Below, in pieces: positions 34,267 to 54,096 of a stretch of 64,000 bases of DNA. The first letter of the stretch is position 1; the number at the start of each line of letters is the position of its first letter. The DNA comes from Ralstonia pickettii (GTDB taxonomy: Bacteria; Pseudomonadota; Gammaproteobacteria; Burkholderiales; Burkholderiaceae): assembly GCF_000607165.1 (NCBI RefSeq), contig NZ_JFZG01000009.1:1-64000 (forward strand), written 5' to 3'. The notes below the pieces were generated by a model. The model saw nothing but the letters and a program-made list of their open reading frames with translations. It did not search any database and was not told the DNA's origin. Position numbers and translations under genes: made by a program.

Positions 34267-34306
34267 CGCATCACAAATCGGTATGCGAGCGATGGGAAAA
34301 TTTTAT

Positions 34307-35292: not shown

Positions 35293-35301
35293 CGCGTGGG
35301 T

Positions 35302-36401: not shown

Positions 36402-37667
36402 ATGGACAGGCAAGGCACGCAAACGCAGGGGATGTCCCGCGATCGGCTCGCACGGGTCGAGCGCTTCATCGATGACGCTTACATTGCGACGGGCAAGCTG
36501 CCCGGCGCGCTCGTCCAGGTATGGCGGCGCGGCGAACTGGCCTTGAACTCCGTGCTGGGCCTGGCCGACCGCGAGCGCCAGGTGCCGCTGGCCGAAGACT
36601 CGATTTTCCGCATCTACTCGATGACCAAGCCCATCACGTCGGTGGCGTTCATGATGCTGGTGGAGGAATGCAAGGTCGCGCTGGACGATCCGGTCAGCAA
36701 GTTCATCCCCGCGTGGGCGAACCTGGGCGTGCACGCCGGCGGCTTCATGGAGGGCTTCCAGTCGCGCCCGGTCAAACGCCCCATGCGCATGGTCGACCTG
36801 CTGCGCCACACCTCCGGCCTGACCTATGGCTTCCACCAGAACACGAATATCGACGCGGCGTACCGCCGGCTGAAGCTGGGCGACATCGCCACCGATGGCA
36901 CGCTCGACGAGATGATCGAAAAGCTGGCCGGCGTGCCGCTGGAGTTCTCTCCGGGCGACGCGTGGAACTACTCCGTCTCCACCGATGTGCTCGGCTACCT
37001 GGTCGGCAAGATCAGCGGCATCCCGTTCGAGACGTTCCTGAAGGAGCGGATTTTCGACCCGCTTGGCATGGTCGATACGGCCTTTCATGTGCCGGAAGAG
37101 AAGGCGTCGCGCCTCTGCGCATGCTATGCCGTGGGGGCGATGGGGTCGAAGACGGTGTCCGATCGTGGGCCGGTCTTGCAGGACGATCCGCGCGCCAGCC
37201 CGTACCTGAAGCCGCTCAGCTTCATTTCTGGCGGTGGCGGTTTGGTTTCTACCGCAGCGGACTACCTGCGCTTCTCACGCATGCTGCTGCAGGGCGGCGA
37301 GCTGGATGGCGTGCGCCTGCTGGGGCCGAAAACGCTGGCGTTGATGACGGCCAACCATCTGCCGGGCGGGCGCGACATGTCGAGCCTATCGTCGCCTTCG
37401 ATGTTCAGCGAGGCAGCCTATGACGGCGTGGGGTTCGGGCTGGGCTTTGCAACCACGATCTCCCAGGCGGCCACGTTGATTCCCGGCAGCACGGGCGATT
37501 TCTTCTGGGGCGGCGCGGCTGGCACCTTCTTCTGGGTGGACCCGCAGGAGGATCTGATCGGCCTGTTCCTGACGCAGGTCCTGCCGTCGTCTGCTTACCC
37601 CGTGCGTCGGCAATTGCGCACGCTTGTCTATAGCGCGATCACGGATGTAGGTGGCGCGGCGCGTTGA
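36402..37667 (+). CDS. Serine hydrolase of the beta-lactamase/EstB family
   Basis: The 421-residue class-C-like fold has the catalytic SMTK (Ser-x-x-Lys) in IYSMTKPITS, the Tyr motif in NYSVSTDVLGYLVGK and a WGGAAGTFFWVDP region where lactamases have the K-T-G box. Such EstB-like enzymes are usually carboxylesterases, not true beta-lactamases. There is no signal peptide, so it is probably cytosolic. An AAGGAGAAGG site directly precedes ATG 36402. Divergent LysR regulator. Confidence 0.9.
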   Translation: MDRQGTQTQGMSRDRLARVERFIDDAYIATGKLPGALVQVWRRGELALNSVLGLADRERQVPLAEDSIFRIYSMTKPITSVAFMMLVEECKVALDDPVSKFIPAWANLGVHAGGFMEGFQSRPVKRPMRMVDLLRHTSGLTYGFHQNTNIDAAYRRLKLGDIATDGTLDEMIEKLAGVPLEFSPGDAWNYSVSTDVLGYLVGKISGIPFETFLKERIFDPLGMVDTAFHVPEEKASRLCACYAVGAMGSKTVSDRGPVLQDDPRASPYLKPLSFISGGGGLVSTAADYLRFSRMLLQGGELDGVRLLGPKTLALMTANHLPGGRDMSSLSSPSMFSEAAYDGVGFGLGFATTISQAATLIPGSTGDFFWGGAAGTFFWVDPQEDLIGLFLTQVLPSSAYPVRRQLRTLVYSAITDVGGAAR

Positions 37668-37681
37668 GCCCGCGTTGACCA

Positions 37682-37715
37682 TCAAGGCGGCGGAGCATTC
37701 CGCGCCGCCGCCTGA
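37682..37715. terminator. Hairpin between convergent genes
   Basis: TCAAGGCGGCGG (37682-37693) pairs with CCGCCGCCTGA (37705-37715) with a single bulge and an 11-nt loop. There is no clear T run, so it is a possible terminator for either flanking gene. Confidence 0.4.
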
Positions 37716-37738
37716 TCATCACGTCGATTAAACGCCGA

Positions 37739-39271
37739 TCAAACGTCGAACCGGACGCCCTGCGCCAGCGGCAGCGCGCCGCTGTAGTTGACGGTGTTGG
37801 TGGCGCGGCGCATGTAACCCTTCCATGCGTCCGAGCCGGATTCGCGGCCGCCGCCGGTTTCCTTCTCGCCGCCGAATGCACCGCCGATCTCGGCGCCCGA
37901 TGTGCCGATGTTGACGTTGGCAATGCCGCAGTCGCTGCCCGCCGACGACATGAAGCGCTCGGCATCGCTCAGGTTTGCCGTGAAGATGGCGGACGACAGG
38001 CCCTGCGGCACGCCGTTCTGGATGGCGATGGCCTGCTCGGTGTCGCCGTCATACGTCACGACATAGAGGATCGGTGCGAAGGTCTCGCTTTCCATCACCT
38101 TCGTCGGCTTCGGCATTTTGACCAGCGCGGGGCGCACGTACCAGGCGTCGGTGCCCAGGTCTTCGCGCACGCGCTCGCCACCCAGTACTTCGCCCCCTTC
38201 AGCGCGGGCCTGCGCCAGTGCCTGCTGCATGCCGTCGAAGGCAGCCTGGTCGATCAACGGGCCGACCAGCATGCCGTCCGCCAGCGGGTCGCCAATCGCA
38301 ATGCTCTGGTAGATCTTTTCCAGACGGGCGAGGAGTGTGTCGGCCACCGAGCGGTGCACGATCAGGCGGCGCAACGACGTGCAGCGTTGGCCCGCCGTGC
38401 CAACGGCGGCAAAGGTGATGGCGCGTGCCGCCAGTTCCAGATCCGCCGAAGGCGTGACGATCATCGCGTTGTTGCCGCCCAGCTCCAGGATCGAGCGGCC
38501 AAAGCGTTCCGCCACTTTCACGCCCACCTGACGGCCCATGCGCGTCGAGCCCGTGGCGCTGACGATCGGCACAAGGTGGCTGGCAACCAGCGCTTCGCCC
38601 ACATCGCGCCCGCCGATCAGCAGTTGGCTCAGCCCGGCAGGAATGGCCCCTGGCTTTTCCGCATTGAACGCGTCGACAACCTGCTGCATCAGGTGCTGGC
38701 AAGCAATGGCCGTCAGCGGTGTCTTCTCCGACGGCTTCCACACGATGGCGTTGCCGCACACCAGGGCCAGCGCAGCGTTCCACGACCACACCGCCACCGG
38801 AAAGTTGAACGCCGAGATGATGCCCACCACCCCCATCGGATGCCAGGTTTCCATCATGCGGTGCCCAGGGCGCTCGCTGGCGATGGTCAAGCCATGCAGT
38901 TGCCGCGACAGACCGACGGCAAAGTCGCAGATGTCGATCATCTCCTGCACTTCGCCCAGGCCCTCGGAGGTGATCTTGCCTGCCTCCAGTGAGACCAGTT
39001 CGCCAAGCGCTGCCTTGTGCGTGCGCAGGACCTCGCCCAGGCGGCGCACCAGTTCTCCGCGCACGGGTGCCGGCACGGTACGCCATGCCAGATACGCCTG
39101 ATGCGCGCCCTGGATGGCAGCCTCGGCCTCGCTGGCGGTATGCGATTTCACGGTCGCCAATACCGCGCCATCGCGCGGGGCGCGGCTCGTCCAGTCCGAC
39201 CCTTCGTAGGCCTTCAGGTCCAGGCCGAGGGCCTTCAGTACGGTCTGCAATCGTGTTCGTGAATCTGACAT
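37739..39271 (-). CDS. amaB: Alpha-aminoadipate-semialdehyde dehydrogenase (ALDH7, AmaB type)
   Basis: The 510-residue NAD(P)-dependent aldehyde dehydrogenase oxidises L-2-aminoadipate 6-semialdehyde (in equilibrium with Delta1-piperideine-6-carboxylate) to L-2-aminoadipate. The ALDH7/antiquitin subgroup is marked by AVGTAGQRCTSLRRLIVH (catalytic Cys), ETFAPILYV, GSDCGIANVNIGTSGAEIGG and GGGRESGSDAWKGYMRR; ELGGNNAMIV carries the catalytic Glu. It is the last gene of the minus-strand transporter/oxidase cluster, 65 bases after the binding-protein gene. The start at MSDSRTRL (39271) follows the family. Confidence 0.9.
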   Translation of the reverse strand: MSDSRTRLQTVLKALGLDLKAYEGSDWTSRAPRDGAVLATVKSHTASEAEAAIQGAHQAYLAWRTVPAPVRGELVRRLGEVLRTHKAALGELVSLEAGKITSEGLGEVQEMIDICDFAVGLSRQLHGLTIASERPGHRMMETWHPMGVVGIISAFNFPVAVWSWNAALALVCGNAIVWKPSEKTPLTAIACQHLMQQVVDAFNAEKPGAIPAGLSQLLIGGRDVGEALVASHLVPIVSATGSTRMGRQVGVKVAERFGRSILELGGNNAMIVTPSADLELAARAITFAAVGTAGQRCTSLRRLIVHRSVADTLLARLEKIYQSIAIGDPLADGMLVGPLIDQAAFDGMQQALAQARAEGGEVLGGERVREDLGTDAWYVRPALVKMPKPTKVMESETFAPILYVVTYDGDTEQAIAIQNGVPQGLSSAIFTANLSDAERFMSSAGSDCGIANVNIGTSGAEIGGAFGGEKETGGGRESGSDAWKGYMRRATNTVNYSGALPLAQGVRFDV

Positions 39272-39336
39272 GGCGCGAATCCTTGCTGTTCTTTCGTGTT
39301 CAATCAAAAAACTGTTGCGTTGCGGCAGCGCTCAAC

Positions 39337-40401
39337 TCAACGCTCGACGGTGCGGTTCCAGCGCTTGCTCCACTCGGGGCGTTCGGCGTTGATCACGTCC
39401 CAGTCCAGGGCAACGGCCGTCTTCAGGATGTTGTTCATCTTGTTCTGCTCGTCCGCCGCCTTGCCCTTGAGCGGCGCCTTGGGGTTGACTGGATTGTAGG
39501 AGCCGTTTTCCATGGCGAGCGCCTGGGCCTCGGGGCTGATCAGGTAGTCCGCCAGCTTCTGCGCCAGATCGGCATCCGGGTTGTTGGCCAGCACGCACTG
39601 CGCCGTCAGCAGAACGACGGCGCCTTCCTTGGGGGCGACGAATTCCATCGGGATGCCCTTGGACTTCATCAGCTCGACCTGCGTGAGCGTGTAGGGAAAC
39701 AGCGCGGCATCGCCGGCCTGCATCATCTCCACCACCTTCGACGAGTTGGGGATGTACTCGACCACGTTCGGGCCGATGGTGGTGGGCCATGCCTTGAAGG
39801 CCGGATCGACGTTCTTTTCAGTGCCGCCCTTGAGGCGGTTGAACATCAGGAAGGCATCCAGCCCAAACGACGAAGCCGGCATGGATTGCACGACCACCTT
39901 GCCCTTGTATTTCGGGTCAGCCAGATCGCCCCACGAGGTCGGCGGCGTCCAGCCCTTGTCGGCAAAGATCTTGGTGCTGTAGGCCAGGCCGGTCAGCCCC
40001 ATCGACAGGCCCACGGCGTAGTCCCCCTTGAGGTGGGCAATGGCGGGCACGGCCGACAGGTTGGCCGAAGGCTTGAGCTTTTCGCATAGCCCCATGCCGA
40101 TGGCGCGGAACATGACGCCGTCGTCCAGCGTCATCACGTGCATCTGCGCCTTGCCCTTGGTCGCCTGGGCCTTGGCGAGGATGTCGGTCGAGGTGCCGGG
40201 CACGACGACGACCTTGACGTTGTTGGCCTTCTCGAACGGCGGGAATACGAACTGCGTGTAGGTGCGTTCCATGTTGCCGCCGTTCATGCCGATGTACAGC
40301 GTCTTGGTTTCGGCGTGGGCGGCGCCGGCGGCGAGCAGCGCGGTTCCGGCAGCCGCTGCAATGATGGACGTGAACGATGTTTTCGCGTGTTTCACAAGCA
40401 T
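39337..40401 (-). CDS. ABC transporter periplasmic binding protein (PotD-like)
   Basis: The 354-residue protein has a signal peptide with core SIIAAAAGTALLAAGAAHA (cleavage AHA|E), then an extracellular solute-binding fold of the spermidine/putrescine/opine group (LYIGMNGGNMERTYTQFVFPPF, shown as ends; SWGDLADPKYKGKVVV). It would deliver the substrate to the permeases and ATPase encoded upstream. The ligand is unknown; genomic context points to a lysine-derived amino or imino acid. AGGAG lies seven bases upstream of ATG 40401. Confidence 0.88.
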   Translation of the reverse strand: MLVKHAKTSFTSIIAAAAGTALLAAGAAHAETKTLYIGMNGGNMERTYTQFVFPPFEKANNVKVVVVPGTSTDILAKAQATKGKAQMHVMTLDDGVMFRAIGMGLCEKLKPSANLSAVPAIAHLKGDYAVGLSMGLTGLAYSTKIFADKGWTPPTSWGDLADPKYKGKVVVQSMPASSFGLDAFLMFNRLKGGTEKNVDPAFKAWPTTIGPNVVEYIPNSSKVVEMMQAGDAALFPYTLTQVELMKSKGIPMEFVAPKEGAVVLLTAQCVLANNPDADLAQKLADYLISPEAQALAMENGSYNPVNPKAPLKGKAADEQNKMNNILKTAVALDWDVINAERPEWSKRWNRTVER

Positions 40402-40427
40402 GGTGGTCTCCTGGGGCATCAAGTGCA

Positions 40428-41561
40428 TCAAGCTGCGGGTTGCAGAAAGCGTTGGATGGAAAAGGGTTCGATCGGCGTGGTGGTGCGGCCTTCGGCAATC
40501 AGCTCGGCCATGACATCGCCCACGCCTGGCCCGAGCTGGAAGCCGGCGCCGGCAAAGCCAAAGGCGTGGAACAGGCCGGGGCGGCGGGCACTGGGCCCAA
40601 TCACGGGCTGGTCGTCGGGCAGGTTGCCTTCCGTGCCGCTCCACGTGCGGATGATGTGGGCGCCCGTGAGTTGTGGCAGCAGGGCAGCCAACTGCGGCAA
40701 CTGGCGCAGGATCGCCACGTGCGACGAGCGCGCGCGCTGGTCGTCCAATACGTAGCCGCGCCCGCCGCCGAATACCACATTGCCGCGCCGCACCTGCCGG
40801 CAGTAGATGCCGCCGCCTTCCACGCCCAGGCTCCAGGGCAGGAAAAACGGCAGCGGCTCGGTCACGCCCATGGTGGGCGGGATGGTGAACATCGGCACGG
40901 GCTCGCCCCACTGCGCTGCAAACTGCGCTGCCCAGGCGCCGGCGCAGTTGACGAGCGCGGAGGCTTTGACCTCCAGATCGCGGTCATGCTGCCGTGCATG
41001 AATGACGAAGCGGGCGCCATCGTGCTCGACCGATTGCACCGGCGCGTGCTCGCGCACATCGGCGCCTGCCGCGTGCGCCGCGCGCGCAAATGCGGGCGAC
41101 AGCAGGCGCGGATTGGCCTGCCCGTCTTCAGGGCACAGCGAGCCGCCGACGATCTGATCGCCGCCCATCGGAAAATATTTCTGCAGCGCAGCCTGGCCTT
41201 CAATGAGCTGCAACCCGAGGCCAAAGCCCTCGCTGCGTGCTGCATAGCTGGCCAGCGATTCCATGTCAGCCACGCAACGAGCGATCTTGAAGTGCCCGCT
41301 GCGCTCGTACTCGGCCTCGGTGCCGATCAACTCGGTCAGACGCCCCCAGATCTGGTGCGAACGCTGGGCCAGCGGCAATTGCTCAATGGAGCGCCCCTGA
41401 CGCCGCACACCGCCAAAATTGACGCCGCTTGAGCGCGAACCGCACAGGTCGCGCTCGAGCAACGTGACGGCCAGCCCGCGCCGGCGCAGGAACAGCGCGG
41501 TGGCGCTGCCCATGATGCCGCCGCCGATGATGGCCACGTCGCACGCAAGCTGCTCACGCAT
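40428..41561 (-). CDS. FAD-dependent imino/amino-acid dehydrogenase, catalytic subunit (LhpB/HcnC/OoxB-like)
   Basis: The 377-residue member of the DAO-type FAD oxidoreductases has an N-terminal dinucleotide motif VAIIGGGIMGSATALFLRRR, SSGVNFGGVRRQG near the flavin, a C-terminal GTEGNLPDDQPVIGP and FGFAGAGFQLGPGVGDVMAELI. In D-hydroxyproline dehydrogenase, opine oxidases and HCN synthase this subunit holds the substrate site. It overlaps the alpha-subunit gene by eight bases. I infer it oxidises pipecolate or a lysine-derived opine, because downstream products match. Confidence 0.85.
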   Translation of the reverse strand: MREQLACDVAIIGGGIMGSATALFLRRRGLAVTLLERDLCGSRSSGVNFGGVRRQGRSIEQLPLAQRSHQIWGRLTELIGTEAEYERSGHFKIARCVADMESLASYAARSEGFGLGLQLIEGQAALQKYFPMGGDQIVGGSLCPEDGQANPRLLSPAFARAAHAAGADVREHAPVQSVEHDGARFVIHARQHDRDLEVKASALVNCAGAWAAQFAAQWGEPVPMFTIPPTMGVTEPLPFFLPWSLGVEGGGIYCRQVRRGNVVFGGGRGYVLDDQRARSSHVAILRQLPQLAALLPQLTGAHIIRTWSGTEGNLPDDQPVIGPSARRPGLFHAFGFAGAGFQLGPGVGDVMAELIAEGRTTTPIEPFSIQRFLQPAA

Positions 41562-42984
41562 GGTGGCTCTCCGGTTCGCTTGCCTCGGTCACATCCAGCG
41601 GTAGCGGCTTGATCGGTGCCTGGCCGCGCAACCGGCCCACTTGCGCCAGCGGAACGGACTGCGCGTGCGCCAGGATTTCCGCTGCCGCTGCGCCGCACAT
41701 CCGGCCCTGGCAGCGGCCCATGCCCACCCGGCACAGCGCCTTCAGCCGGTTCAGCTCGTGCACGCCGCATTCCGCTGCCGTCTGGCGCAGAGTGCCTGCG
41801 GTGACGTTTTCGCAGCGGCATACGACCAGGTCGTCGCTGGCGTGCGCGGCCCAGTCATCGGGAAAGGGGAAGGCCACTTCCAGCGCGTGGCGGAACCGCT
41901 CGATCTTCTGCAGACGCTGGCGCAGCGCAGCCAAGCGATTGGTGTCGACGGTGATTTGCCGATCCTGCAACAGGGCGAGCGCCGCCAATTCGCCCGAGTA
42001 CTCGGCTGCATCGGCGCCCATGATGCCCGCGCCATCGCCTGCCAGATACACGCCCGCGACCGAGCTGCGCCGCATGGCGTCGATGCGCGGCACATGGCAG
42101 CGGTGCAGTGCAGAAAACTCGAACGCGCAGCCCAGCAGATCGGCGAGCTGTGTTTCGGGCCGCAGTGCGTAACCCATGCCCACAGCGGAGCAAGCCGTGC
42201 GTTGTTCGCGGCCGGCGCTGTCTTGCCAGACGAGGTGCTCCAATGCCGCATCGCCTTCCGCGCGCAGCAAACGCACGCCGTGATGCATGGGGATGCCGTG
42301 CAGCTTGAGCCAGCCCACCAGCGCCATGCCCTTGGCCATGACGCCAGGCTGGCCCAGCATGGCCGGCGCCGCCTTGTAGCGCGCGGTGGCCGGGGCAGTG
42401 TCCAGCACCGCCACGACGTTTGCGCCGGCCTTGGCGTACTGGCAGGCCACCAGATACAGCAGCGGGCCGGTGCCTGCAAACACGACGGCATCGCCAATCG
42501 CGCAGCCCTGGTACTTGAGCGCGACTTGCGCGCCGCCCAGCGTATAGACGCCCGGCAGTGTCCAACCCGGGATCGGCAGCACACGGTCTGTGGCGCCGGT
42601 GGCGACAATCACATCGCGCCAGGGCAGGCTGCTGACCGCGCGCGTAGGCACATGCAGCAGGTCGAGCAGATCGGGCTGGGCATTCCACACCAGGGTCTGC
42701 GGGTGGTAATCGATCTGTGGCTGGAGCTGGTCAAAGGCGGCATGTACGGCCTGCGCACGCGCGGCTTCGGTGCCGTACAGATCGGCCGCGCTCCGGGCAA
42801 AGCCATCCGGCTGGCGGCGATAGATCTGACCGCCGGCGCGCGGAGCCTCATCCAGCACGATGGGCTTGAGGCCGTGCGCCAGCAGCGTCTGCGCCGCACG
42901 CACACCTGCCGGCCCCGCACCGATGATGACTGGCGGCAGATCCGCCTGCGACTGGCGCTGCAGCGTGGGGGCGGGTTGCGTCAT
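41554..42984 (-). CDS. NAD/FAD oxidoreductase subunit with BFD-type [2Fe-2S] domain (LhpF/HcnB/OoxA-like)
   Basis: The 476-residue protein has two dinucleotide-binding regions (VIIGAGPAGVRAAQTL and VVFAGTGPLLYLVACQYAK), the VIVATGATDRVLPIPGWTLPG stretch typical of this family (shown as ends VIVATGA and GWTLPG) and a C-terminal BFD-like cluster site: VCRC near residue 395, then LCRVGMGRCQGRMCG. It passes electrons from the catalytic subunit. The start at 42984 overlaps the 2Fe-2S gene stop (ATGA) and decides against a longer ORF. Confidence 0.88.
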   Translation of the reverse strand: MTQPAPTLQRQSQADLPPVIIGAGPAGVRAAQTLLAHGLKPIVLDEAPRAGGQIYRRQPDGFARSAADLYGTEAARAQAVHAAFDQLQPQIDYHPQTLVWNAQPDLLDLLHVPTRAVSSLPWRDVIVATGATDRVLPIPGWTLPGVYTLGGAQVALKYQGCAIGDAVVFAGTGPLLYLVACQYAKAGANVVAVLDTAPATARYKAAPAMLGQPGVMAKGMALVGWLKLHGIPMHHGVRLLRAEGDAALEHLVWQDSAGREQRTACSAVGMGYALRPETQLADLLGCAFEFSALHRCHVPRIDAMRRSSVAGVYLAGDGAGIMGADAAEYSGELAALALLQDRQITVDTNRLAALRQRLQKIERFRHALEVAFPFPDDWAAHASDDLVVCRCENVTAGTLRQTAAECGVHELNRLKALCRVGMGRCQGRMCGAAAAEILAHAQSVPLAQVGRLRGQAPIKPLPLDVTEASEPESHHA

Positions 42985-43310
42985 CACGCGGCTCCCTCGC
43001 TGCCAGCCGGTTGCGTGCAGATGTGCATGCCGGGTTCGATCATGGTCTGGCACGCGCGCAGCGATTTGCCATCGGCCAGACGCACCCAGCAGTCCTGGCA
43101 CGCGCCCATCAGGCAGAAACCGGCGCGCGGCTGCTGGCTGAATTCGTTCAAGCGCAACTGGCGTGTTTGCGTGAGCACAGCCGTCAGGACGGTGTCGCCG
43201 GCAAGCGCTTCGGCGGGGCGGCCATCCAGCACGAAGGGCACCGCGGGGCGGTTGCGCTCTTTGAGGCGCTGGAGCTGCGCGCGGGCCGATGGATTTGCAG
43301 GAGCGTTCAT
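42984..43310 (-). CDS. Small [2Fe-2S] ferredoxin-like subunit (HcnA/LhpE-like)
   Basis: The 108-residue protein has the plant-type ferredoxin cluster motif GFCLMGACQDCWV plus a fourth Cys (LRACQTM). In HcnABC-type complexes this is the third subunit, relaying electrons toward the respiratory chain. It is translationally coupled with the next gene (ATGA), so the three genes encode one heterotrimer. Confidence 0.88.
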   Translation of the reverse strand: MNAPANPSARAQLQRLKERNRPAVPFVLDGRPAEALAGDTVLTAVLTQTRQLRLNEFSQQPRAGFCLMGACQDCWVRLADGKSLRACQTMIEPGMHICTQPAGSEGAA

Positions 43311-43323
43311 CGTGATCTGTGTC

Positions 43324-44118
43324 TCAATGCTTGCCGATCAGAATGCGGTCCAGGCCGTAGACCTTGTCCAGCAGCAGCATCAGCGCGAGCGTGAGGAAGA
43401 CGATCAGCGCCGAGACGGCGGCCATCATCGGGTCGAGCGATTCCGTGGCGTACATGTACATGCGCACCGGCAGCGTGACGGTGGCGGGCGACACCACGAA
43501 GATCGACATGGTCAGTTCATCAAAGCTGTTGATGAAGGCCAGCAGCCACCCGCCCGTGATGCCCGGCAGGATCATCGGCAACGTCATGCGGCGGAACACC
43601 GTGAAGCTGCTCGCACCCAGCGAATAAGCGGCGTGCTCGACCGAGTGGTCAAAGCCCACCAGCGCTGCCATCACCAGCCGCATGGTGTACGGCGTGACGA
43701 TCAGTGCATGGGCGAAGATCAGCCAGCCGAAGCTGCCTTGCCCGCCCACCAGCGAGAACATGCGCAGCAGCGCCACGCCCAGCACCAGGTGCGGAATGAT
43801 CAGCGGTGACAGAAACACGCCTTGCAAATACTGCAGCCCCGGCGCGCGGTAGCGGACGATGGCCATGGCGGCCGGCACTGCCAGCGCGGTAGACAGCGTG
43901 GCCGCCGCCAGGCCCAGCCACAGACTGTTCCAGAACGATTGCACGAAGTCGGGGTGATGCAGCACCTGATCGAACCAGCGCAGCGAGAAATGATGGGTCG
44001 GCAGTGTGAGCGTTTCTTCAGGCGTGAAGGCGACGATGCACACGATCACCAGCGGTGCCAGCATGAAGATGATGACGAGCGCGTTGAAGATGAGCGCGAG
44101 CGGTCCGTTCTTTTGCAT
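43324..44118 (-). CDS. ABC transporter permease (PotC-like)
   Basis: The 264-residue inner-membrane protein has six hydrophobic segments and the permease EAA-type loop EHAAYSLGASSFTVFRRMTLPMILPG (shown as ends EHAAYSLGA and PMILPG). It is the second permease of a polyamine/opine-type importer. AAGGAG lies about eight bases before the ATG at 44118. The gene is 13 bases upstream of the 2Fe-2S subunit gene, linking uptake to oxidation. Confidence 0.9.
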   Translation of the reverse strand: MQKNGPLALIFNALVIIFMLAPLVIVCIVAFTPEETLTLPTHHFSLRWFDQVLHHPDFVQSFWNSLWLGLAAATLSTALAVPAAMAIVRYRAPGLQYLQGVFLSPLIIPHLVLGVALLRMFSLVGGQGSFGWLIFAHALIVTPYTMRLVMAALVGFDHSVEHAAYSLGASSFTVFRRMTLPMILPGITGGWLLAFINSFDELTMSIFVVSPATVTLPVRMYMYATESLDPMMAAVSALIVFLTLALMLLLDKVYGLDRILIGKH

Positions 44119-44128
44119 GTGCGCTCCT

Positions 44129-44986
44129 TCAGCCCAGCGTTCTTTTGTAGCGCCCTTCAATCATGCGGTTCCAGCCCAGCATGATGACGAGGTTGGCCGC
44201 CAGCAGAATCAGCGCGATGGCTGCGCCCAGCGGCCAGTTCAGTTCGTTCAGGTATTCGTCGTAGATGAGCGTGGCGACCATCTTCACGCGGCGCCCGCCC
44301 AGCAGGCCCGGAATGGCGAATGAGCTGGCCGCCAGGCCGAACACGATCAGGCTGCCCGACAGAATGCCCGGCATGACCTGCGGCAGCACCACGCGGCGCA
44401 AGGTGGTGAAGTGCGATGCGGACAATGACAGCGCGGCGTTTTCCACCCACGGGTCGAGCTTTTGCAGCGAGGTCCACACCGGGATGACCATGAACGGCAG
44501 CATCACGTGCACCAGCGCAATCACGACGGCCGTCTCGTTGTACAGCAGCTTGACCGGGCCGATGCCAACGGCCTTGAACGCGGCGTTGATCAGGCCTTCG
44601 GGCCCGAGCAGCATGCTCCAGCCGAAGGCGCGCACCACGACCGAGATCAGCAGCGGCGCGAGAATGACGAGCAGAAAGATCGAACGCCACGGCTTGCGCA
44701 TCCGGCTCAGGATGTAGGCCTCGGGCGCGCCAATCAGGATGCAGACCAGCGTCACGAGTGCCGAGACGCGCAGCGTGCGCCAGAAGATCTCGTAGTAGTA
44801 CGGGTCTTGCACCACGTGCAGGTAGTGCACGAACGTGAAGGTGCCCGCAATGGGGCCCTTGTCGGCATCGAACACGTTGAACGACAAAATCACGCTCAGC
44901 GCGAGCGGCACGAACAGCATCACGGCAAAGAGGGCCAGCGCTGGGCCGGTCATGCTCCATGGCACCCAGGTCGGTCTGCGGCTCAT
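44129..44986 (-). CDS. ABC transporter permease (PotB-like)
   Basis: The 285-residue inner-membrane permease has about six transmembrane helices, starting with LALFAVMLFVPLALSVILSF, and the ATPase-coupling loop ENAALSLSASHFTTLRRVVL near residue 195. The ATG at 44986 overlaps the ATPase gene stop (ATGA). It pairs with the PotC-like permease downstream. Confidence 0.9.
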   Translation of the reverse strand: MSRRPTWVPWSMTGPALALFAVMLFVPLALSVILSFNVFDADKGPIAGTFTFVHYLHVVQDPYYYEIFWRTLRVSALVTLVCILIGAPEAYILSRMRKPWRSIFLLVILAPLLISVVVRAFGWSMLLGPEGLINAAFKAVGIGPVKLLYNETAVVIALVHVMLPFMVIPVWTSLQKLDPWVENAALSLSASHFTTLRRVVLPQVMPGILSGSLIVFGLAASSFAIPGLLGGRRVKMVATLIYDEYLNELNWPLGAAIALILLAANLVIMLGWNRMIEGRYKRTLG

Positions 44987-46047
44987 GCTGCATGCCCCTC
45001 GGTACCGATCACGCGGACATAGCGGTCCTGCCAATCCACGCCGACGGTCTGGCCCACTTCGCGCGGGGCATCGCCATCGTTGACGGCGGATACCAGCATC
45101 GCGCCGAGCGGCGTGTCGACGGTGTACATCCACTGGTTGCCGAGGAAGAAGCGTTCGGTCACGCGGCCTTCACAGCGGCCGGCGCCGTCGGCGGTGCACG
45201 TCATCTTTTCCGGGCGCAGCGCCAGCACAACCTTGCTGCCCACCGGCGTGCCCGGCGGCAGCGCGAGTTGCACGGAACCGATCGATGCGCGAAGTTCGCC
45301 GTCGGTGCCCGACACCACCGCGGCATGCAGCAGATTGGCCTTGCCGACAAAGGTGGAGATGAACGCATTGCGCGGATGCTCATACACCGCCAGCGGTGTA
45401 TCCACCTGGGTGATGCGGCCCGCCTCCATGACGACCACGCGATCGCTGATCGACATGGCTTCGGCCTGATCGTGGGTGACCATGATGGTGGTCGTGCCGA
45501 CCTTGCGCTGGATCTCGCGCAGCTCGAACTGCATCTCTTCGCGCAGCTTGGCGTCCAGGTTCGACAGCGGCTCATCCAGCAGCAGCACCGGCGGCTTGAT
45601 GACCAGCGCCCGCGCCAGGGCAACGCGCTGGCGCTGGCCGCCCGAGAGTTCGCGCGGGTAGCGATCAACGTGCTTGTCCAGGTGCACCAGCGCCAGCGTC
45701 TGCATGGCGCGCTCACGGCGCTCTGCTGCGGGGCACTTGCGCATCTCCAGCCCGAATTCCACGTTCTCGCGCACCGTCATGTGCGGGAACAGCGCGTAGG
45801 TCTGGAACACGATCCCCAGGCCGCGCGCGTTGGCCTTGGCACGGGTGATGTCCTTGCCGTCCAGCTCGATCGAGCCTTCCGTCACCTCCGCGAAGCCCGC
45901 AATCATCTGCAGGGTCGTGGTCTTGCCGCAGCCCGATGGGCCCAGCAGCGAGACGAACTCGCCCTTGTGCACGTTCAGGTTGAAGTCCTGAACGACCCGC
46001 AGGTCGCCGTACTGCTTGGAGACATGGTTGAGGCGCAGAAAACTCAT
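44983..46047 (-). CDS. ABC transporter ATP-binding protein (PotA-like)
   Basis: The 354-residue energy-coupling ATPase has Walker A GPSGCGKTT, the ABC signature LSGGQRQRVALARAL, Walker B VLLLDEPLSNLD, the switch His in VTHDQAEAM and a C-terminal TOBE domain. It is the first gene of the eight-gene minus-strand operon (ATPase, two permeases, three oxidase subunits, binding protein, aldehyde dehydrogenase). It is divergent from the IclR regulator. Confidence 0.93.
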   Translation of the reverse strand: MSFLRLNHVSKQYGDLRVVQDFNLNVHKGEFVSLLGPSGCGKTTTLQMIAGFAEVTEGSIELDGKDITRAKANARGLGIVFQTYALFPHMTVRENVEFGLEMRKCPAAERRERAMQTLALVHLDKHVDRYPRELSGGQRQRVALARALVIKPPVLLLDEPLSNLDAKLREEMQFELREIQRKVGTTTIMVTHDQAEAMSISDRVVVMEAGRITQVDTPLAVYEHPRNAFISTFVGKANLLHAAVVSGTDGELRASIGSVQLALPPGTPVGSKVVLALRPEKMTCTADGAGRCEGRVTERFFLGNQWMYTVDTPLGAMLVSAVNDGDAPREVGQTVGVDWQDRYVRVIGTEGHAA

Positions 46048-46182
46048 CGGTCATCCTTTGCGACTTGGGGGCGTCGCCAGACGCTTCTGTTTGAACAATA
46101 TGGCTATGCTATTGCAACACCTGTGCCAAAACATCGTTCCAGCCTAGGTGTATACGCTGTAGTTGGAATTTTTCTCATATTT

Positions 46183-46199
46183 ATTCCGTTCATCGGAAT
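46183..46199. promoter_or_regulatory. Candidate IclR operator
   Basis: ATTCCG (46183-46188) and CGGAAT (46194-46199), 5 bases apart, form a perfect inverted repeat in the A+T-rich divergent promoter region, 36 bases before the IclR gene and about 135 bases before the ATPase gene. A further TTGGAATT half-site-like sequence lies at 46164-46171. Confidence 0.5.
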
Positions 46200-46235
46200 A
46201 CAATCGATCAACCGAATTCAGTCCGTTCCAGCTTT

Positions 46236-47078
46236 ATGTCCGTAGATTCCGACGACGACGCGCATCAGCGCAGCGCCATGCACCGCACCTTCCAGATCCT
46301 GCGCACCATGGCGGAGCAGCAGCACCAAGGTGTGCGCGTCACCTACCTGGCCAAGACGCTGGGAATGACCCCCGCCACCACGCACCGCCTGCTGCAGGGG
46401 CTGACGCAAGAAGGCATGGTCGAGCAGGATCAGCAGAACAAGCTGTACCGGCTGAGCCTGGACCTGTTCTGCCTGGCGGCCCAGGCCGGTGCGGTGAACG
46501 ACTTGCGCTCGGTCGCCCGGCCGGCCCTGCTGCGGCTGAATGCCAGCCTGGGCGACACAGTGTTGCTGCTGGTGCGCTCGGGCTTTGATGCGGTGTGTCT
46601 GGATCGCGTGGAAGGCCAATATCCGATTCGCACCTTCACCGGCGACGTGGGCGGCCGGATCGAACTAGGAGTGGGGCAGGGCGCCCTGGTGATCCTGGCG
46701 CACCTGCCCGAGGCCGAGCAGGAGGAGGTGCTGCGCTACAACTTGCCGCGCATCCGGCACTACAGCGTGTACGACGAGGTCTATCTGCGCTCCGAGGTCA
46801 GAAAGGCGCGCGAACTCGGCTACAGCGCCAAGACGGACGGGTTGCTCGAAGGCATGGCAGGCATTGCCGTGCCGGTGTTCGATCGCAATGGCAATGTCGT
46901 CGCCGCGCTTTCTGTGGGGACGCTTGCCAACCGCCTGAGCGCCGAGCGCCTGCCCATCGTCTACGACATGCTGCTGCGCGAGGCCAATCGGCTGACCACG
47001 CAGATCAATCCGTTTGACCCGACACTGCGTCGGCCCATGCAATCAATGGCCGTGAGCGATACCTATCGCGCCATCTGA
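46236..47078 (+). CDS. IclR-family transcriptional regulator
   Basis: The 280-residue protein has an N-terminal winged HTH (TFQILRTMAEQQHQGVRVTYLAKTLGMTPATTHRLLQGLTQEGM, shown as ends TFQILR and TQEGM) and a C-terminal IclR effector domain (YSVYDEVYLRSEVRKAREL, GMAGIAVPVFDRNG, ALSVGTLANRL). It probably senses the imported compound or a pathway intermediate and controls the divergent transporter/oxidase operon. Confidence 0.92.
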   Translation: MSVDSDDDAHQRSAMHRTFQILRTMAEQQHQGVRVTYLAKTLGMTPATTHRLLQGLTQEGMVEQDQQNKLYRLSLDLFCLAAQAGAVNDLRSVARPALLRLNASLGDTVLLLVRSGFDAVCLDRVEGQYPIRTFTGDVGGRIELGVGQGALVILAHLPEAEQEEVLRYNLPRIRHYSVYDEVYLRSEVRKARELGYSAKTDGLLEGMAGIAVPVFDRNGNVVAALSVGTLANRLSAERLPIVYDMLLREANRLTTQINPFDPTLRRPMQSMAVSDTYRAI

Positions 47079-47091
47079 TCTGACCAGGCGA

Positions 47092-48507
47092 TCATGCGAG
47101 CACGCGACCCGGGTTCAGCAAGCCTTGCGGGTCAAGTGCCTGCTTGATGGTCCGCATCAATTGCAGGGCCACCGGCGCCTTGTAGTGCGAAAGATGATCG
47201 CGCTTGAGCGAGCCGATGCCATGTTCGGCTGAGATCGAACCGCCAAATCGGTGGACGGACTGGTACACCGCATCGCCAATCGCAGCCTCATGCGCGGCAA
47301 CGAACGCTGCAGCATCCGCGCCCGCCGGCGGCTGCACGTTGTAGTGCAGGTTTCCATCGCCCAGGTGCCCGAAATTGATGAGCCGCAGCCCGGGCGCCAG
47401 GGCCTGCAGTTGCGCATCGGTCTGCGCCACAAACTCGGGAATGCGCGAGATCGGCACCGAGACATCGTGTTTGATGTTGGGCCCTTCGGCCGCCTGGGCC
47501 AGGGTGATGCTCTCGCGGATGTGCCACAGGTCGTGCGCCTGCCGGATGTTCTCGGCGATGATCGCGTCGGTCACGATGCCGTCTTCCATCGCGGTTTCCA
47601 GCAGGTGTTCAAACTGCGCCCGGGCGTGCGCCTCTGACTCACTGTCGGAGGCTTCCAGCAAGACGCACCACATCGTGTCGCGCCACATCGGCACGCGCAG
47701 ATGTGGATAGTGCGAGTCGACCAGCCGGAGCCCTTCCTGGCTCATCACTTCAAAGCCTGTGAGCGCGGCAGACAGATGCCGGTGCGACAAGGCCAGCAAC
47801 GCCGTGGCTGCTTGCAGCGAAGGCACGGCGGCCCACGCTGTCAACTGCGCGGCCGGTTGCGGATAGAGGCGCAGCGTGGCCGCCGTGATGATGCCCAGCG
47901 AGCCCTCGCTGCCGATGAACAGATTGCGCAGGTCATAGCCGGTGTTGTCCTTGCGCAGGCCTTGCAGGCTCTCCCAGATTTGCCCGTCAGCCAGAACAAC
48001 TTCCAGCCCCAGGCACAGCTCGCGCGCATTGCCATAGCGCAGCACCTGTGTGCCGCCCGCGTTGGTCGCCAGGTTGCCGCCGATCGTGCAACTGCCTTCC
48101 GCGCCCAGGCTCAACGGGAACAGCATGCCCGCCTCGCTTGCCACGTCCTGCAGTGACTGGAGTACGCAACCGGCATCCACCGTCATCGTCATGTTGGCCG
48201 CGTCGATGGCGCGCACGGTCTGCATGCGGCGCAGGCTCACAACGATCTGCCCGCCGCTGGCATCTGGCACCGAGCCTTCCACCAGGCCCGTATTGCCGCC
48301 CTGCGGCACGATGGACGCTCCAGCTTGCGCACACGCGCGCACGACCGCGGCCACTTCCGCCGTACAGCCCGGCCGCACCACGCACAGCGCCTTGCCGCGC
48401 ACGCGCTGGCGCCAATCGGATTCGTATTCGGCGCAGTCGTCGCCGGTCAGAACATGGGCGGGGCCCACGATGTCGCGCAAGGCCGGAATCAGGTTGTCGG
48501 GTGTCAT
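47092..48507 (-). CDS. FAD-linked D-2-hydroxyglutarate dehydrogenase
   Basis: The 471-residue flavoenzyme has an N-terminal FAD-binding PCMH domain (SIVPQGGNTGLVEGSVPD, GGNLATNAGG, FIGSEGSLGIITAATLRLYP) and a C-terminal FAD-oxidase domain with the metal-binding FGHLGDGNLHYN and SISAEHGIGSLKRD motifs of the D2HGDH/GlcD/D-lactate group. In this operon the substrate should be D-2-hydroxyglutarate made by the DUF1338 enzyme, giving 2-oxoglutarate. D-lactate or glycolate is the generic alternative. It lies 38 bases after the aminotransferase gene. Confidence 0.88.
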   Translation of the reverse strand: MTPDNLIPALRDIVGPAHVLTGDDCAEYESDWRQRVRGKALCVVRPGCTAEVAAVVRACAQAGASIVPQGGNTGLVEGSVPDASGGQIVVSLRRMQTVRAIDAANMTMTVDAGCVLQSLQDVASEAGMLFPLSLGAEGSCTIGGNLATNAGGTQVLRYGNARELCLGLEVVLADGQIWESLQGLRKDNTGYDLRNLFIGSEGSLGIITAATLRLYPQPAAQLTAWAAVPSLQAATALLALSHRHLSAALTGFEVMSQEGLRLVDSHYPHLRVPMWRDTMWCVLLEASDSESEAHARAQFEHLLETAMEDGIVTDAIIAENIRQAHDLWHIRESITLAQAAEGPNIKHDVSVPISRIPEFVAQTDAQLQALAPGLRLINFGHLGDGNLHYNVQPPAGADAAAFVAAHEAAIGDAVYQSVHRFGGSISAEHGIGSLKRDHLSHYKAPVALQLMRTIKQALDPQGLLNPGRVLA

Positions 48508-48544
48508 GGCAATGGCGATGAAGGTTGTCTGTTTGAGGGCGCTA

Positions 48545-49795
48545 TCAACGCATGGACAGCGTTACCGCCGCAGCCAGCCGCCGCACGGCCTGCTCGATCT
48601 GCGGCACCTCGGGCGCGGCAAACGACAAGCGCATGGTGTTGAGTTGTGCGTTGTCCGGGTAGAACGCCGTGCCCGGCACGTAGAGCACCTGCTGCGACAC
48701 GGCGGCATCAAAGAGCGCTTGCGGGTCGATCGACTGCGCGAACGTCGCCCAGACAAACATGCCGCCTGCCGGCGCGGCGCATTGCACATGGCCATCCAGC
48801 TGCGTGGCGATGCCTTGCACCAGGGCCAACATGCGCCGTTGATACTCGATGCGGGCGCGCTGCACCGTGGCCGGGTAGCGGTCGCTTGCCAGATAGCGGG
48901 CCGCCACCATTTGCGTCAGCGGCGACGTGCACAGATCCACCGTCTGTTTGGCGATGGCGCAGCGGCGCAGCAGGCTGCTGTCGGCCAGCATCCAGCCGAT
49001 CCGCAGCGCGGGAGCAACGGTCTTGGACAGGCTGGAGAGATACACCACCGGGTTCATGCCGTCTGCTGCCAGCCGATCGCCCAAGGCACGCAAGGTTGGA
49101 GGCATCGCAGCGGCGTTGCTCTCCGGCGCATCAAAGCGCAGCTCGCCGTAGGGATCGTCTTCCACCACCCAGAAGCCGTGGGTGCAGGCCAACTGGACGA
49201 GGGCTTCGCGCCGCTGTGCAGACAGCAGCGTGCCGCGCGGGTTGGAAAAATTCGGCACCGTGTAGAGCAGCTTGGGGCGCTGCGTGGCGGGCAACCGGTG
49301 CAGCAGGTCGGCCAGTGCATCGGTCTGCAGGCCGTGTTCGTCCATCGGCACGGGCACGATACGGGCTTGTGCCAGGCGCAAGGCTTGCAGCGTGGCAGGG
49401 TAGGCGGGCACTTCCACCAACACCGTATCGCCGGGTTCGATCAACGCCCGCACCAAAAGGTCGAACGCTTGCTGCGAGCCCGTGGTCACCATCATCTGCT
49501 CGGCGCTGGCCTGGATGCCCCGTGCACCCATCAGCGCTGCGAGGGCCGTGCGAAGGACGGGCAGCCCTTCAGTGGCGCCGTATTGCAGGGCTTGCGCATC
49601 GCCCGCCATGGCCTGGGCGGCGGCCTGCGCCAACCCTTCGGCATCGAACAGACTGGGCGACGGATACCCGCCCGCCAGCGAGATCATCCCCGGCTGGCTG
49701 AGGTACGGAAACAGTTCGCGGATGGGCGAGCCGGCGGGGTTTGCAAACGGGGCGGCAAAGCCCGGCATGGCGGCGGGTGTGTGCAGGCCGGTCAT
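48545..49795 (-). CDS. PLP aminotransferase (2-aminoadipate aminotransferase-like)
   Basis: The 416-residue fold-type-I class I/II aminotransferase of the MocR/LysN-like subgroup has GGYPSPSLFD, TTGSQQAFDLL, VEDDPYGELRF, the PLP Lys258 in YLSSLSKTVAPALRIGW and a C-terminal Arg in MRLSFAAPE. It has no N-terminal DNA-binding domain. Context (2-oxoadipate dioxygenase gene directly upstream with ATGA overlap) points to 2-aminoadipate plus 2-oxoglutarate going to 2-oxoadipate plus glutamate. Confidence 0.88.
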   Translation of the reverse strand: MTGLHTPAAMPGFAAPFANPAGSPIRELFPYLSQPGMISLAGGYPSPSLFDAEGLAQAAAQAMAGDAQALQYGATEGLPVLRTALAALMGARGIQASAEQMMVTTGSQQAFDLLVRALIEPGDTVLVEVPAYPATLQALRLAQARIVPVPMDEHGLQTDALADLLHRLPATQRPKLLYTVPNFSNPRGTLLSAQRREALVQLACTHGFWVVEDDPYGELRFDAPESNAAAMPPTLRALGDRLAADGMNPVVYLSSLSKTVAPALRIGWMLADSSLLRRCAIAKQTVDLCTSPLTQMVAARYLASDRYPATVQRARIEYQRRMLALVQGIATQLDGHVQCAAPAGGMFVWATFAQSIDPQALFDAAVSQQVLYVPGTAFYPDNAQLNTMRLSFAAPEVPQIEQAVRRLAAAVTLSMR

Positions 49796-51201
49796 GCGGC
49801 ATCCACGACGGCCGTGCCGCGCAGCACGGCGCGCACCTGATCGATCGAGCGCTGCTGCGCCGCCTCGTACAACGCGATTTCGTCATGCACGCGTGCACCC
49901 AGCGCAGCCTCAAACGCTTGCTGTGCGGCGTGGGCTTGGTACTGCTTTTGCTCCTCGCCACCCAGGTTGGATTGGAAGATGCCTGCCGCGCTCACCGGCA
50001 AGAAGTCTTCATACGTGATGGGATCGGCTTGTACCCAGCCCTTGGCCAGAAGTTCATCCAACGACGCATCGGCCGCCGCTGCGCTGTCGGCGTGTGCATG
50101 GCCCGTTGGCGTGAGGGTGTAGCGATAGAACGCCAGCCCTTGCGCACGCAACGCCTCATGGGTATCCGGAAAGGCGCGGAACGCCTGGGCTAGCCGATCT
50201 TCGTAGTTGGGTGCGGCACTGCCGGCATTGCCCATGCTGCGCACCTCGGCCAGCAGTTGGTCGTATAGCGCGCGGCCCTTGCGTGTGAGGGCCACACCGC
50301 GCTGCTCGATTTCGCCAAAGCGCGCCGTGTGGGCGCCGGCATCGTCGGTAAAGCGCACGGCTTCCTGCAGCGCCTTGAAGCTGGTCTGGCGCAGCAGGAT
50401 GGGGCAGTTGCGGGGCGGCGGACCTTCCACCACATCTTTGGCGTCCATGCCGCGTGCGGGCATGGCGGCCTGTGCGGCGTCGATGTCGAGCGTGCGCGGC
50501 GTCAGGTGGTTGATGTGGGGGCCGCGGAAGCACACCACGTCGGCCACCAGGCGGTGGGCGGCTTGCAGCGCGCGATACGTCTCGGCATCGACCGTGGCGG
50601 TGCTGTGCCAGCGGAAGGTCTCCAGCGCCTCGCGCACAAAGGCGTCCGCATCCGCGTCGGCCAGACCGCCGTCAGCTTCGCGTTGGGCGATCAGTTCCAG
50701 CACGCGCGGCGTAAAGATCTGCCGTTGCGTCAGGATGGCAGTGGCCTTGTCGCGCAGGGCAGCGTCGGCAATCAGTTCAAGCCGCAGCAGCGACGTGAAC
50801 ACGCGAAACGGATTGGCCAGCAACGCGGCATCGGCCACCGGGCGAAACGCCGTCGAATGCACGGGCACGCCAGCCACCGAAAGATCGTAGTAACCCACCG
50901 GCTCCATCCCCATGACGGCAAACAGCCGGCGCAGCGTGGCCAGTTCGGCTGCCGTGCCGACGCGAATGGCGCCGTGGCGCTCGACGTCCAGCCGCTCCAG
51001 TTCGCCCGACTGCGCCATCTGCGCGCGCAGCGCGGGCTGGGCGTCCAGCGTGCGAGCGTTGATGTCGGATACCAGCTCGACCAGAGTGCCGTATTGGGGC
51101 ACTTCTTCGCGGTACATGGCGGACATGGCGCGCGAAAAGCGGGAGCGGATTTCGTTCGCGTGGATGAAGTTCGACGCCGGAGGTTGATGCGCAGTGCTCA
51201 T
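49792..51201 (-). CDS. hglS: DUF1338 2-oxoadipate dioxygenase/decarboxylase
   Basis: The 469-residue protein is of the DUF1338/YdcJ family. A characterised member in Pseudomonas putida (HglS) is an Fe(II) enzyme that turns 2-oxoadipate into D-2-hydroxyglutarate. Candidate metal ligands visible: His in GVPVHSTAFRPV, His in FRGPHINHLTPRTLDID and Glu in RFGEIEQRG. It is the first gene of a three-gene operon with the aminotransferase and D-2-hydroxyglutarate dehydrogenase, exactly the enzymes on either side in that pathway. Divergent LysR regulator. Confidence 0.9.
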   Translation of the reverse strand: MSTAHQPPASNFIHANEIRSRFSRAMSAMYREEVPQYGTLVELVSDINARTLDAQPALRAQMAQSGELERLDVERHGAIRVGTAAELATLRRLFAVMGMEPVGYYDLSVAGVPVHSTAFRPVADAALLANPFRVFTSLLRLELIADAALRDKATAILTQRQIFTPRVLELIAQREADGGLADADADAFVREALETFRWHSTATVDAETYRALQAAHRLVADVVCFRGPHINHLTPRTLDIDAAQAAMPARGMDAKDVVEGPPPRNCPILLRQTSFKALQEAVRFTDDAGAHTARFGEIEQRGVALTRKGRALYDQLLAEVRSMGNAGSAAPNYEDRLAQAFRAFPDTHEALRAQGLAFYRYTLTPTGHAHADSAAAADASLDELLAKGWVQADPITYEDFLPVSAAGIFQSNLGGEEQKQYQAHAAQQAFEAALGARVHDEIALYEAAQQRSIDQVRAVLRGTAVVDAA

Positions 51202-51280: not shown

Positions 51281-51299
51281 TCATTCCAAACTAGAATGA
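51281..51299. promoter_or_regulatory. LysR-type operator between hglS and its divergent regulator
   Basis: TCATTC (51281-51286) and GAATGA (51294-51299) form a perfect inverted repeat with a 7-base spacer, and the core fits the LysR T-N11-A rule. It lies 80 bases from the DUF1338 start and 37 bases from the LysR ATG. Confidence 0.55.
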
Positions 51300-51335: not shown

Positions 51336-52256
51336 ATGTTCCTGTCCCGCCGCTTTCTGCCGCCGATGTCCCTGCTATGCGCGTTCGAGGCCGCCGCGCG
51401 CCACCAGAGCTTCACGGCTGCCGCTGCCGAGCTGCACCTGACGCAGAGCGCCGTCAGCCGCCAGATCCGCGCGCTGGAAGATCGCCTGGGCGCTGAGCTA
51501 TTCGTGCGTGAACGCCAGACCGTGCGGCTGAGCGCGGCGGGCCAGGCGTATGCGGAGGAAATCCGCGGTGCGTTGATGCGCATCTCCAGCGCCACGGTCG
51601 GGTTCCGCGCCAATCCGCAGGGCGGCAGCTTGAATCTGGCCATCCTGCCGACGTTCGGCACCCGCTGGCTGGCACCGCGCCTGCCGGCGTTTTTTGACGC
51701 GCACCCCGGCATCACCATCAATCTGACGACGCGGCTGTCGCAGTTCGACTTTCAACTGGAAGCGGTGGACGCGGCCATCCATTTCGGTACACCGCACTGG
51801 CCGGGGGCGGAACTGGCCTTGCTGATGAGCGAAACCGTCGTGCCTGCTTGCAGCCCGGCATTGCTGGCCCGCTACGACTTTGCGCAGCCGCGCGATCTGC
51901 TGCATGCGCCGCTGTTGCACCTGGCCTCGCGCCCCGATGCCTGGCCGCGTTGGCTGGCCAGCCACCACGTGACGGGTGCCGAACCCCAGGGCATGCTGTT
52001 CGACCAATTTGCCACGGCCGCGCAAGCTGCAGTTGCCGGCCTGGGCGTGGCGTTACTGCCGCGTTTTCTGATCACCCACGAGCTGCAGCAAGGCGACCTG
52101 GTGCGGGCGTTGCCGCATGTGCCCGAGATGGAAAGCGCCGAGCGTTACTACCTCGCCTGGCCCACGAGCCGCGCGGATTATCCGCCGCTGCAAGCGCTGC
52201 GGACATGGCTGGTGAAAGCGGCGCAAGACTTCATGCCCACGCAGTCCGCAGAGTGA
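51336..52256 (+). CDS. LysR-family regulator (GcvA-like)
   Basis: The 306-residue protein has an N-terminal HTH in the pattern LLCAFEAAARHQSFTAAAAE and LTQSAVSRQIRALEDRLG, typical of the GcvA subgroup, and a LysR effector domain. Start ATG 51336 (MFLSRRFLPPMSLLCAFEAA) gives the usual length; TTG 51300 is possible. It is divergent from the aminoadipate/2-oxoadipate operon, which it likely activates with 2-aminoadipate or 2-oxoadipate as effector (inferred). Confidence 0.9.
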   Translation: MFLSRRFLPPMSLLCAFEAAARHQSFTAAAAELHLTQSAVSRQIRALEDRLGAELFVRERQTVRLSAAGQAYAEEIRGALMRISSATVGFRANPQGGSLNLAILPTFGTRWLAPRLPAFFDAHPGITINLTTRLSQFDFQLEAVDAAIHFGTPHWPGAELALLMSETVVPACSPALLARYDFAQPRDLLHAPLLHLASRPDAWPRWLASHHVTGAEPQGMLFDQFATAAQAAVAGLGVALLPRFLITHELQQGDLVRALPHVPEMESAERYYLAWPTSRADYPPLQALRTWLVKAAQDFMPTQSAE

Positions 52257-54076: not shown

Positions 54077-54096
54077 TGGCCTGAAGGCCTAACTGC

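Follow-up and report, generated by a model that had tools for sequence, protein, structure and literature searches.

A Ralstonia gene block that may join import and heterotrimeric oxidation of L-pipecolate to the AmaB-HglS route towards 2-oxoglutarate

The stretch of 64,000 nucleotides analysed here (the window) is part of contig C9 of a 5.75-Mb assembly, and its host is a Ralstonia near R. pickettii. Between positions 37,739 and 52,256 it carries a block of 13 genes in two modules, lysR | hglS-lysN-d2hgdh followed by iclR | potA-potB-potC-gamma-alpha-beta-SBP-amaB, where SBP is a substrate-binding protein. In the explanation that we favour, with a probability of roughly 0.55, imported L-pipecolate is oxidised by the heterotrimeric dehydrogenase gamma-alpha-beta and is then carried to 2-oxoglutarate by the route from AmaB to a D-2-hydroxyglutarate dehydrogenase (D2HGDH).

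In the module next to iclR, an ATP-binding cassette (ABC) importer of the PotABCD superfamily would take in L-pipecolate or, less likely, another small amino or imino acid, and gamma-alpha-beta would oxidise it at the C6-N bond to piperideine-6-carboxylate, with the respiratory chain as the presumed destination of the electrons. In open-chain form this product is 2-aminoadipate semialdehyde, from which AmaB would make 2-aminoadipate. In the module next to lysR, the LysN-like enzyme would transaminate 2-aminoadipate to 2-oxoadipate, HglS would convert the latter to D-2-hydroxyglutarate, and the D2HGDH-like enzyme would yield 2-oxoglutarate. The heterotrimer would then stand in for AmaA, the single-chain pipecolate oxidase, without being orthologous to it. 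What is imported, which acceptor takes up the electrons and how the genes are regulated we infer from context only. A broader proposal, to which we give clearly less than even odds, is that iclR | potABC-gamma-alpha-beta-SBP is a dedicated L-pipecolate capture-and-oxidation system, with an unrecognised heterotrimeric L-pipecolate dehydrogenase, in plant and soil Burkholderiales, Pseudomonas and Azospirillum.

Gene block and its conservation in Ralstonia

Gene calls, family models and motifs confirmed every gene named in the first-pass annotation, in the order and on the strand claimed. The addition of the two regulatory genes to the earlier list brings the block to 13 genes and moves its right edge to 52,256. 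The features are as follows (coordinates in the window, strand, description):

37739..39271, minus: amaB, L-piperidine-6-carboxylate / 2-aminoadipate semialdehyde dehydrogenase (ALDH7; NF050084, solved relatives)
39337..40401, minus: SBP, the importer's periplasmic substrate-binding protein (Pfam SBP_bac_8)
40428..41561, minus: beta subunit of the heterotrimeric dehydrogenase, DAO family, presumed catalytic (FAD motif, R-x-W)
41554..42984, minus: alpha subunit, Pyr_redox_2 domain for flavin adenine dinucleotide (FAD) plus BFD-like [2Fe-2S] domain (Pfam Pyr_redox_2, Fer2_BFD, SO_alpha_A3)
42984..43310, minus: gamma subunit, [2Fe-2S] ferredoxin-like (Pfam Fer2_4)
43324..44118, minus: PotC-like importer permease (BPD_transp_1)
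44129..44986, minus: PotB-like importer permease (BPD_transp_1)
44983..46047, minus: PotA-like importer ATPase (ABC_tran, TOBE_2)
46183..46199, no strand: palindrome ATTCC-N7-GGAAT in the potA-iclR gap, presumed IclR operator (recurrence across loci)
46236..47078, plus: iclR-family regulator (IclR-family NCBIfam models, none above cut-off)
47092..48507, minus: d2hgdh, D-2-hydroxyglutarate dehydrogenase-like flavoenzyme (homology to human D2HGDH)
48545..49795, minus: LysN/AADAT-like aminotransferase, putatively 2-aminoadipate to 2-oxoadipate (homology to LysN)
49792..51201, minus: hglS, 2-oxoadipate dioxygenase/decarboxylase (NF049974; H/R/H/E motifs aligned to 6w1g)
51283..51297, no strand: ATTC-N7-GAAT box in the hglS-lysR gap, presumed LysR site (recurrence in Ralstonia)
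51336..52256, plus: lysR-family regulator (GcvA subfamily model PRK11139, 288.6 bits, cut-off 288)

Each row of genes is divergent from its own regulator, lysR from hglS and iclR from potA, and several adjacent genes overlap by a few bases. The two divergent-promoter operons described earlier hold as a gene layout; a scan of the block for consensus promoters and terminators gave no more than shuffled sequences did. The gene order is not due to chance, since all 13 genes recur in unchanged order in four of the five other Ralstonia loci that were read completely, the fifth (L036, genome G105) being without lysN and d2hgdh.

Of the 150 genomes sampled from the family, 14 belong to Ralstonia, and in 12 of these, that of the window included, relatives of both beta and HglS were found (E <= 1e-40), 5.6 to 8.3 kb apart; in all 12 amaB lies about 1.25 kb from beta. 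At this threshold both were missing from G024 and from G144, a draft that is 90% complete. G024 is collinear at 91-92% identity with window positions 29,019-39,525 and 53,426-61,153, and about 0.8 kb stands in it where the window has the intervening 13.9 kb. This locus (L132, G024:C2:291000-310000) keeps the whole of AmaB together with residues 293-354, the last 62, of the binding protein at 95% identity. The simplest reading is that the G024 lineage lost the block.

Enzymes of the lower route

Curated family models support the identities of AmaB and HglS: AmaB reaches 813 bits with the model for L-piperidine-6-carboxylate dehydrogenase (NF050084; cut-off 730), and HglS reaches 739 with its own (NF049974; cut-off 550). 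The best solved relatives of AmaB include the semialdehyde dehydrogenase Pcd (6rtr) and human ALDH7A1 entries. Aligned to the solved 6w1g, HglS shows the motifs HGAIR (76-80), NHLT (231) and GEIEQR (296), so that the substrate arginine and the H-H-E metal triad are kept. HglS is an established enzyme; the substrate arginine of the P. putida protein is R74, and R74A abolishes activity (PMC7286885).

The other two steps, like the chemistry of the dehydrogenase, we infer from homology. The aminotransferase scores 232 bits to Thermus thermophilus LysN (2egy) and 157 to human AADAT, archaeal multi-substrate aminotransferases outscore LysN (255-269 bits), and no curated NCBIfam model was reached. 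Among solved relatives, the flavoenzyme is closer to human D2HGDH (6lpn, 330 bits) than to D-lactate dehydrogenase (197 bits); its highest score among the matches listed, 468 bits, is to the uncharacterised protein 3pm9. No NCBIfam model exceeded its cut-off for this protein, that of YdiJ giving 99 bits against 1350. The lower route proposed in the first-pass annotation is in this sense supported.

The D-lysine/pipecolate route of P. putida runs through AmaA, AmaB, a 2-aminoadipate aminotransferase, HglS and YdiJ. AmaB and HglS are common to both systems, and the intermediates downstream of piperideine-6-carboxylate would be the same. They differ in that AmaA was not found in the Ralstonia genome, where the three-subunit dehydrogenase would take its place, in that a D2HGDH-type enzyme stands where P. 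putida has YdiJ, and in that Ralstonia has a LysN-like aminotransferase and a dedicated ABC importer, with all the genes in one block. The earlier view of lower steps scattered in P. putida was overstated as a picture of Pseudomonas, where they are not always so: amaA adjoins amaB in all seven Pseudomonas genomes examined, and in P. viridiflava hglS, amaB and amaA lie inside 5.6 kb.

A compact HGLS-family protein of about 340 residues, compared with about 460 for the full-length form, was observed at L038:18103-18981 (cut by the locus end), L066:2462-3493, L060:2335-3579 and others. It lies above the Pfam PF07063 cut-off, matches no NCBIfam model and keeps HGALR and NAFNH motifs, and six of the nine compact forms are within 4 kb of AmaB; possibly it is an unrecognised second form of 2-oxoadipate dioxygenase/decarboxylase. 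In Azospirillum (G165:C38:2063-5799, genome of L079), an AmaA-like protein of 456 bits (cut-off 600) was found 1.3 kb from a full-length HglS.

Dehydrogenase and importer

The three-subunit FAD/[2Fe-2S] dehydrogenase was borne out by the motifs and domains of its subunits. Gamma has the [2Fe-2S] motif C-X4-C-X2-C-X12-C, and its stop codon overlaps the ATG of alpha at 42,984. Alpha has an FAD motif and a Fer2_BFD domain above the Pfam cut-off; its cysteine pairs C-X-C and C-X4-C lie 33 residues apart, a wider spacing than in the motif C-X-C-X15-20-C-X4-C printed for heterotrimeric dehydrogenases (PMC4575208). Beta carries an FAD motif and R-x-W, a putative flavin mononucleotide site (PMC4575208). 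This adjacent arrangement matches heterotrimeric dye-linked dehydrogenases of the OpnDH, D-HypDH and L-ProDH type. Beta is 93-98% identical to its counterparts in five named records; four are from Ralstonia, with R. pickettii among them. Beta relatives also occur in 63 plasmid records, with names generic or missing among the 40 rows listed.

Among solved proteins, the presumed catalytic beta appears nearer to the heteromeric L-proline dehydrogenase of archaea (1y56), at 24% identity, than to the flavin opine dehydrogenase 7fgp (34 bits). A flavin opine dehydrogenase was on this score not favoured as the closest relative. In Ralstonia, unlike in 1y56, gamma is a protein of its own. The OdhABC opine dehydrogenases of types 1 and 2 (PMC4575208) share with the Ralstonia enzyme the alpha/beta/gamma composition with FAD, [2Fe-2S] and R-x-W motifs, and have ABC transporter genes close by, but the enzymes linked in Ralstonia are those of 2-aminoadipate breakdown. 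At L046 and L048-L051, related clusters hold two beta-like genes of the DAO family close to a single alpha subunit and resemble the B1-C-A-B2 order of Bradyrhizobium opine dehydrogenases (PMC4575208).

AmaA elsewhere in the genome was considered and rejected: against the L-pipecolate oxidase model NF050086 (cut-off 600) the best protein reached 108 bits and beta itself 56. The Ldh_2 family, to which the reductase DpkA belongs, was not found in the same genome.

The importer had been called PotABC-type, which stands only as a superfamily name. As a polyamine importer (PotABCD) it was rejected, all subunits falling below the curated cut-offs: 368 of 482 bits for the PotA equivalog, 173 of 348 for PotB, 149 of 326 for PotC and 30 of 582 for PotD. 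The ATPase was only narrowly under the cut-off of the potA subfamily model (346 vs 356 bits). A structure model of the binding protein, built from 15 sequences (predicted local distance difference test, pLDDT, 86.7), has opine-binding proteins among its fold neighbours.

Linkage of the cassette to amaB

Importer and heterotrimer together form a widespread cassette in Burkholderiales, Pseudomonas and Azospirillum. A beta-alignment search of named genomes, from which the best 80 loci were kept although more exist, found it in Ralstonia, Comamonas, Polaromonas, Acidovorax, Variovorax, Rhodoferax, Rhizobacter, Curvibacter, Herbaspirillum, Achromobacter, Azospirillum, Pseudomonas and others. One of the loci (L110) belongs to Acidovorax sp. 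GW101-3H11. The binding protein is present in all 80 loci and an IclR gene in 73; one frame-shifted binding-protein row (L070) was dropped from the alignment. In a quick tree of 88 beta proteins, which carries a long-branch warning, 85 form one group, separate from three more distant heterotrimers.

Calling AmaB at 55% identity or more over at least 80 residues and linkage within about 10 kb, we found it in 33 of the 80 loci, where about 0.26 would be expected, and in 28 of the 75 outside Ralstonia; it occurs on either side of the cassette. At least seven changes of state are forced by the starred branches of the tree, which indicates that linkage was gained or lost several times. For this count the window, L014 (genus g10) and L066 were scored as linked, and seven short loci with no visible AmaB were given no state. 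Because of this excess and of the repeated gain or loss, the heterotrimer very likely delivers the substrate of AmaB, as had been proposed; this is supported by the recurrence of the linkage in several genera and by the host genome, in which neither an AmaA exceeding the cut-off nor the Ldh_2 family was found. In genus g10 (L038) and in Polaromonas (L060, L066), the cassette is accompanied by AmaB, a LysN-like gene and the compact HGLS-family protein. Among 38 genomes with the cassette, 34 of them from the 80 named loci, AmaB was present in 36 and HGLS-family proteins in 22, but AmaB is common across the family (104 of the 150 sampled genomes), so its presence alone is weak evidence.

Several observations weigh against the pipecolate explanation. 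The linkage is clustered on the beta tree, with 11 changes where shuffling gives 26.8 on average, and inheritance therefore accounts for much of it. None of the 22 Pseudomonas, three Comamonas and three Azospirillum loci among the best 80 has AmaB linked. In the family sample outside Ralstonia, just two of the 63 genomes with a beta relative at E <= 1e-40, many of these relatives being distant, show the linkage (G009 and G047, genus g10). AmaB was not found in two Rhizobacter genomes with the cassette, and no HGLS-family protein in 16 of the 38. In all seven Pseudomonas genomes examined AmaA, AmaB and the cassette occur together, and the scanned Pseudomonas cassette neighbours included nothing metabolic: representative ones are a sigma factor, a ZapE-like protein, an effector-like repeat protein far under cut-off and two proteins with no model. 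Cassette genomes contain AmaA relatives below cut-off, the highest at 456 bits in Azospirillum, and one Ralstonia has such a protein at 351. In the fold comparison L-proline dehydrogenase does no better than glycine oxidase and heterotetrameric sarcosine oxidase, the three being tied. AmaB persists in G024 after loss of the block, and its survival in a Ralstonia lacking the block indicates that it has other uses. A palindrome common to the upstream regions of AmaB genes was rejected, the best scores there being the same as in random stretches.

Alternative substrates

A fair rival, although we hold it unlikely, is that the imported compound is an epsilon-N-substituted lysine (saccharopine, an N-epsilon-carboxyalkyl-lysine or a lysine opine) whose secondary amine the heterotrimer would cleave to 2-aminoadipate semialdehyde and a second amino acid. 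Flavin opine dehydrogenases are among the heterotrimers of like architecture, and the C-A-B gene order of B. thailandensis is identical to that of Ralstonia (PMC4575208); the opine-binding fold neighbours of the binding protein point the same way, and a different substrate would explain why Pseudomonas has the cassette besides AmaA. However, beta is distant from the solved opine enzyme, and the opine dehydrogenases assayed act on nopaline and octopine, arginine opines with 2-oxoglutarate or pyruvate (PMC4575208). For their unpurified relatives, the assay measured released arginine (PMC4575208). The equivalent cut of a lysine opine would return lysine and not the substrate of AmaB, and the block showed no recognisable gene for handling a second product. 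The Km of BjOpnDH2 for octopine is 19.5 mM (PMC4575208), so octopine may itself be a stand-in substrate for that enzyme.

It is still less probable that the cassette serves a different imino or N-alkyl amino acid, of the D-proline, hydroxyproline or sarcosine types, and that AmaB and HglS lie close to it by clustering with no shared pathway. The fold family does act on glycine, sarcosine, proline and N-methyl amino acids, and the cassette genomes lacking AmaB, like the unlinked Pseudomonas, Comamonas and Azospirillum loci, would agree with this. Against it stand the excess of linked loci over expectation, the several linkage changes on the tree, and the position of the Ralstonia amaB as last gene of the cassette's own apparent operon. 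Very improbable, in our judgement, is D-pipecolate or D-lysine as the natural substrate, from which oxidation at the alpha carbon would give piperideine-2-carboxylate. D-hydroxyproline dehydrogenase has the identical subunit assembly (PMC4575208), but piperideine-2-carboxylate is not the substrate of AmaB. A reductase such as DpkA would be called for, and the host genome lacks the family of DpkA; the ornithine cyclodeaminase-family proteins of that genome are a possible substitute.

Novelty and significance

The open-access literature searched, which leaves most subscription journals outside, gave no report of a heterotrimeric pipecolate enzyme, of a pipecolate importer or of bacterial pipecolate catabolism, and the parts consulted of PMC12462448 and PMC5979394 contain nothing on such an enzyme or importer. 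As far as these searches show, what is new is the importer-heterotrimer cassette as an entry to the route, and the recurring linkage of this cassette to AmaB. Below that entry the pathway is the one already known from P. putida; of the one-block arrangement, earlier considered new, the import-and-oxidise half looks uncharacterised. The finding gives a testable substrate for a widespread but unassigned importer and three-subunit dehydrogenase, and it points to a second solution for the step from pipecolate to piperideine-6-carboxylate. Pipecolic acid is a plant signal of systemic acquired resistance; if the proposal is true, soil and plant bacteria would be linked to the removal of this immune signal.

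Predicted regulatory sites

The palindrome ATTCC-N7-GGAAT is the commonest exact dyad in 74 potA-iclR gaps, being found in 55. Across 90 loci (1,753 kb), 61 of its 62 exact matches lie in that gap, one each in 61 loci, the motif having been chosen from the very loci later scanned. The genome of the window has two exact sites, one in the gap and a second within coding DNA, which was taken as chance. With one mismatch allowed, the window alone is at chance level (1 match; shuffles, mean 1.08), so the case rests on recurrence at one place across loci. In the hglS-lysR gap, a single ATTC-N7-GAAT box with a variable centre occurs in all 11 Ralstonia sequences (10 genomes), and it was not found in five loci outside this genus; genome G129 was counted twice (L037, L056) both here and in the 90-locus scan. 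From this recurrence ATTCC-N7-GGAAT and ATTC-N7-GAAT are the predicted binding sites of the IclR and LysR regulators, respectively. The two palindromes, at 46183-46199 (iclR/potA) and 51283-51297 (lysR/hglS), are alike but spaced differently.

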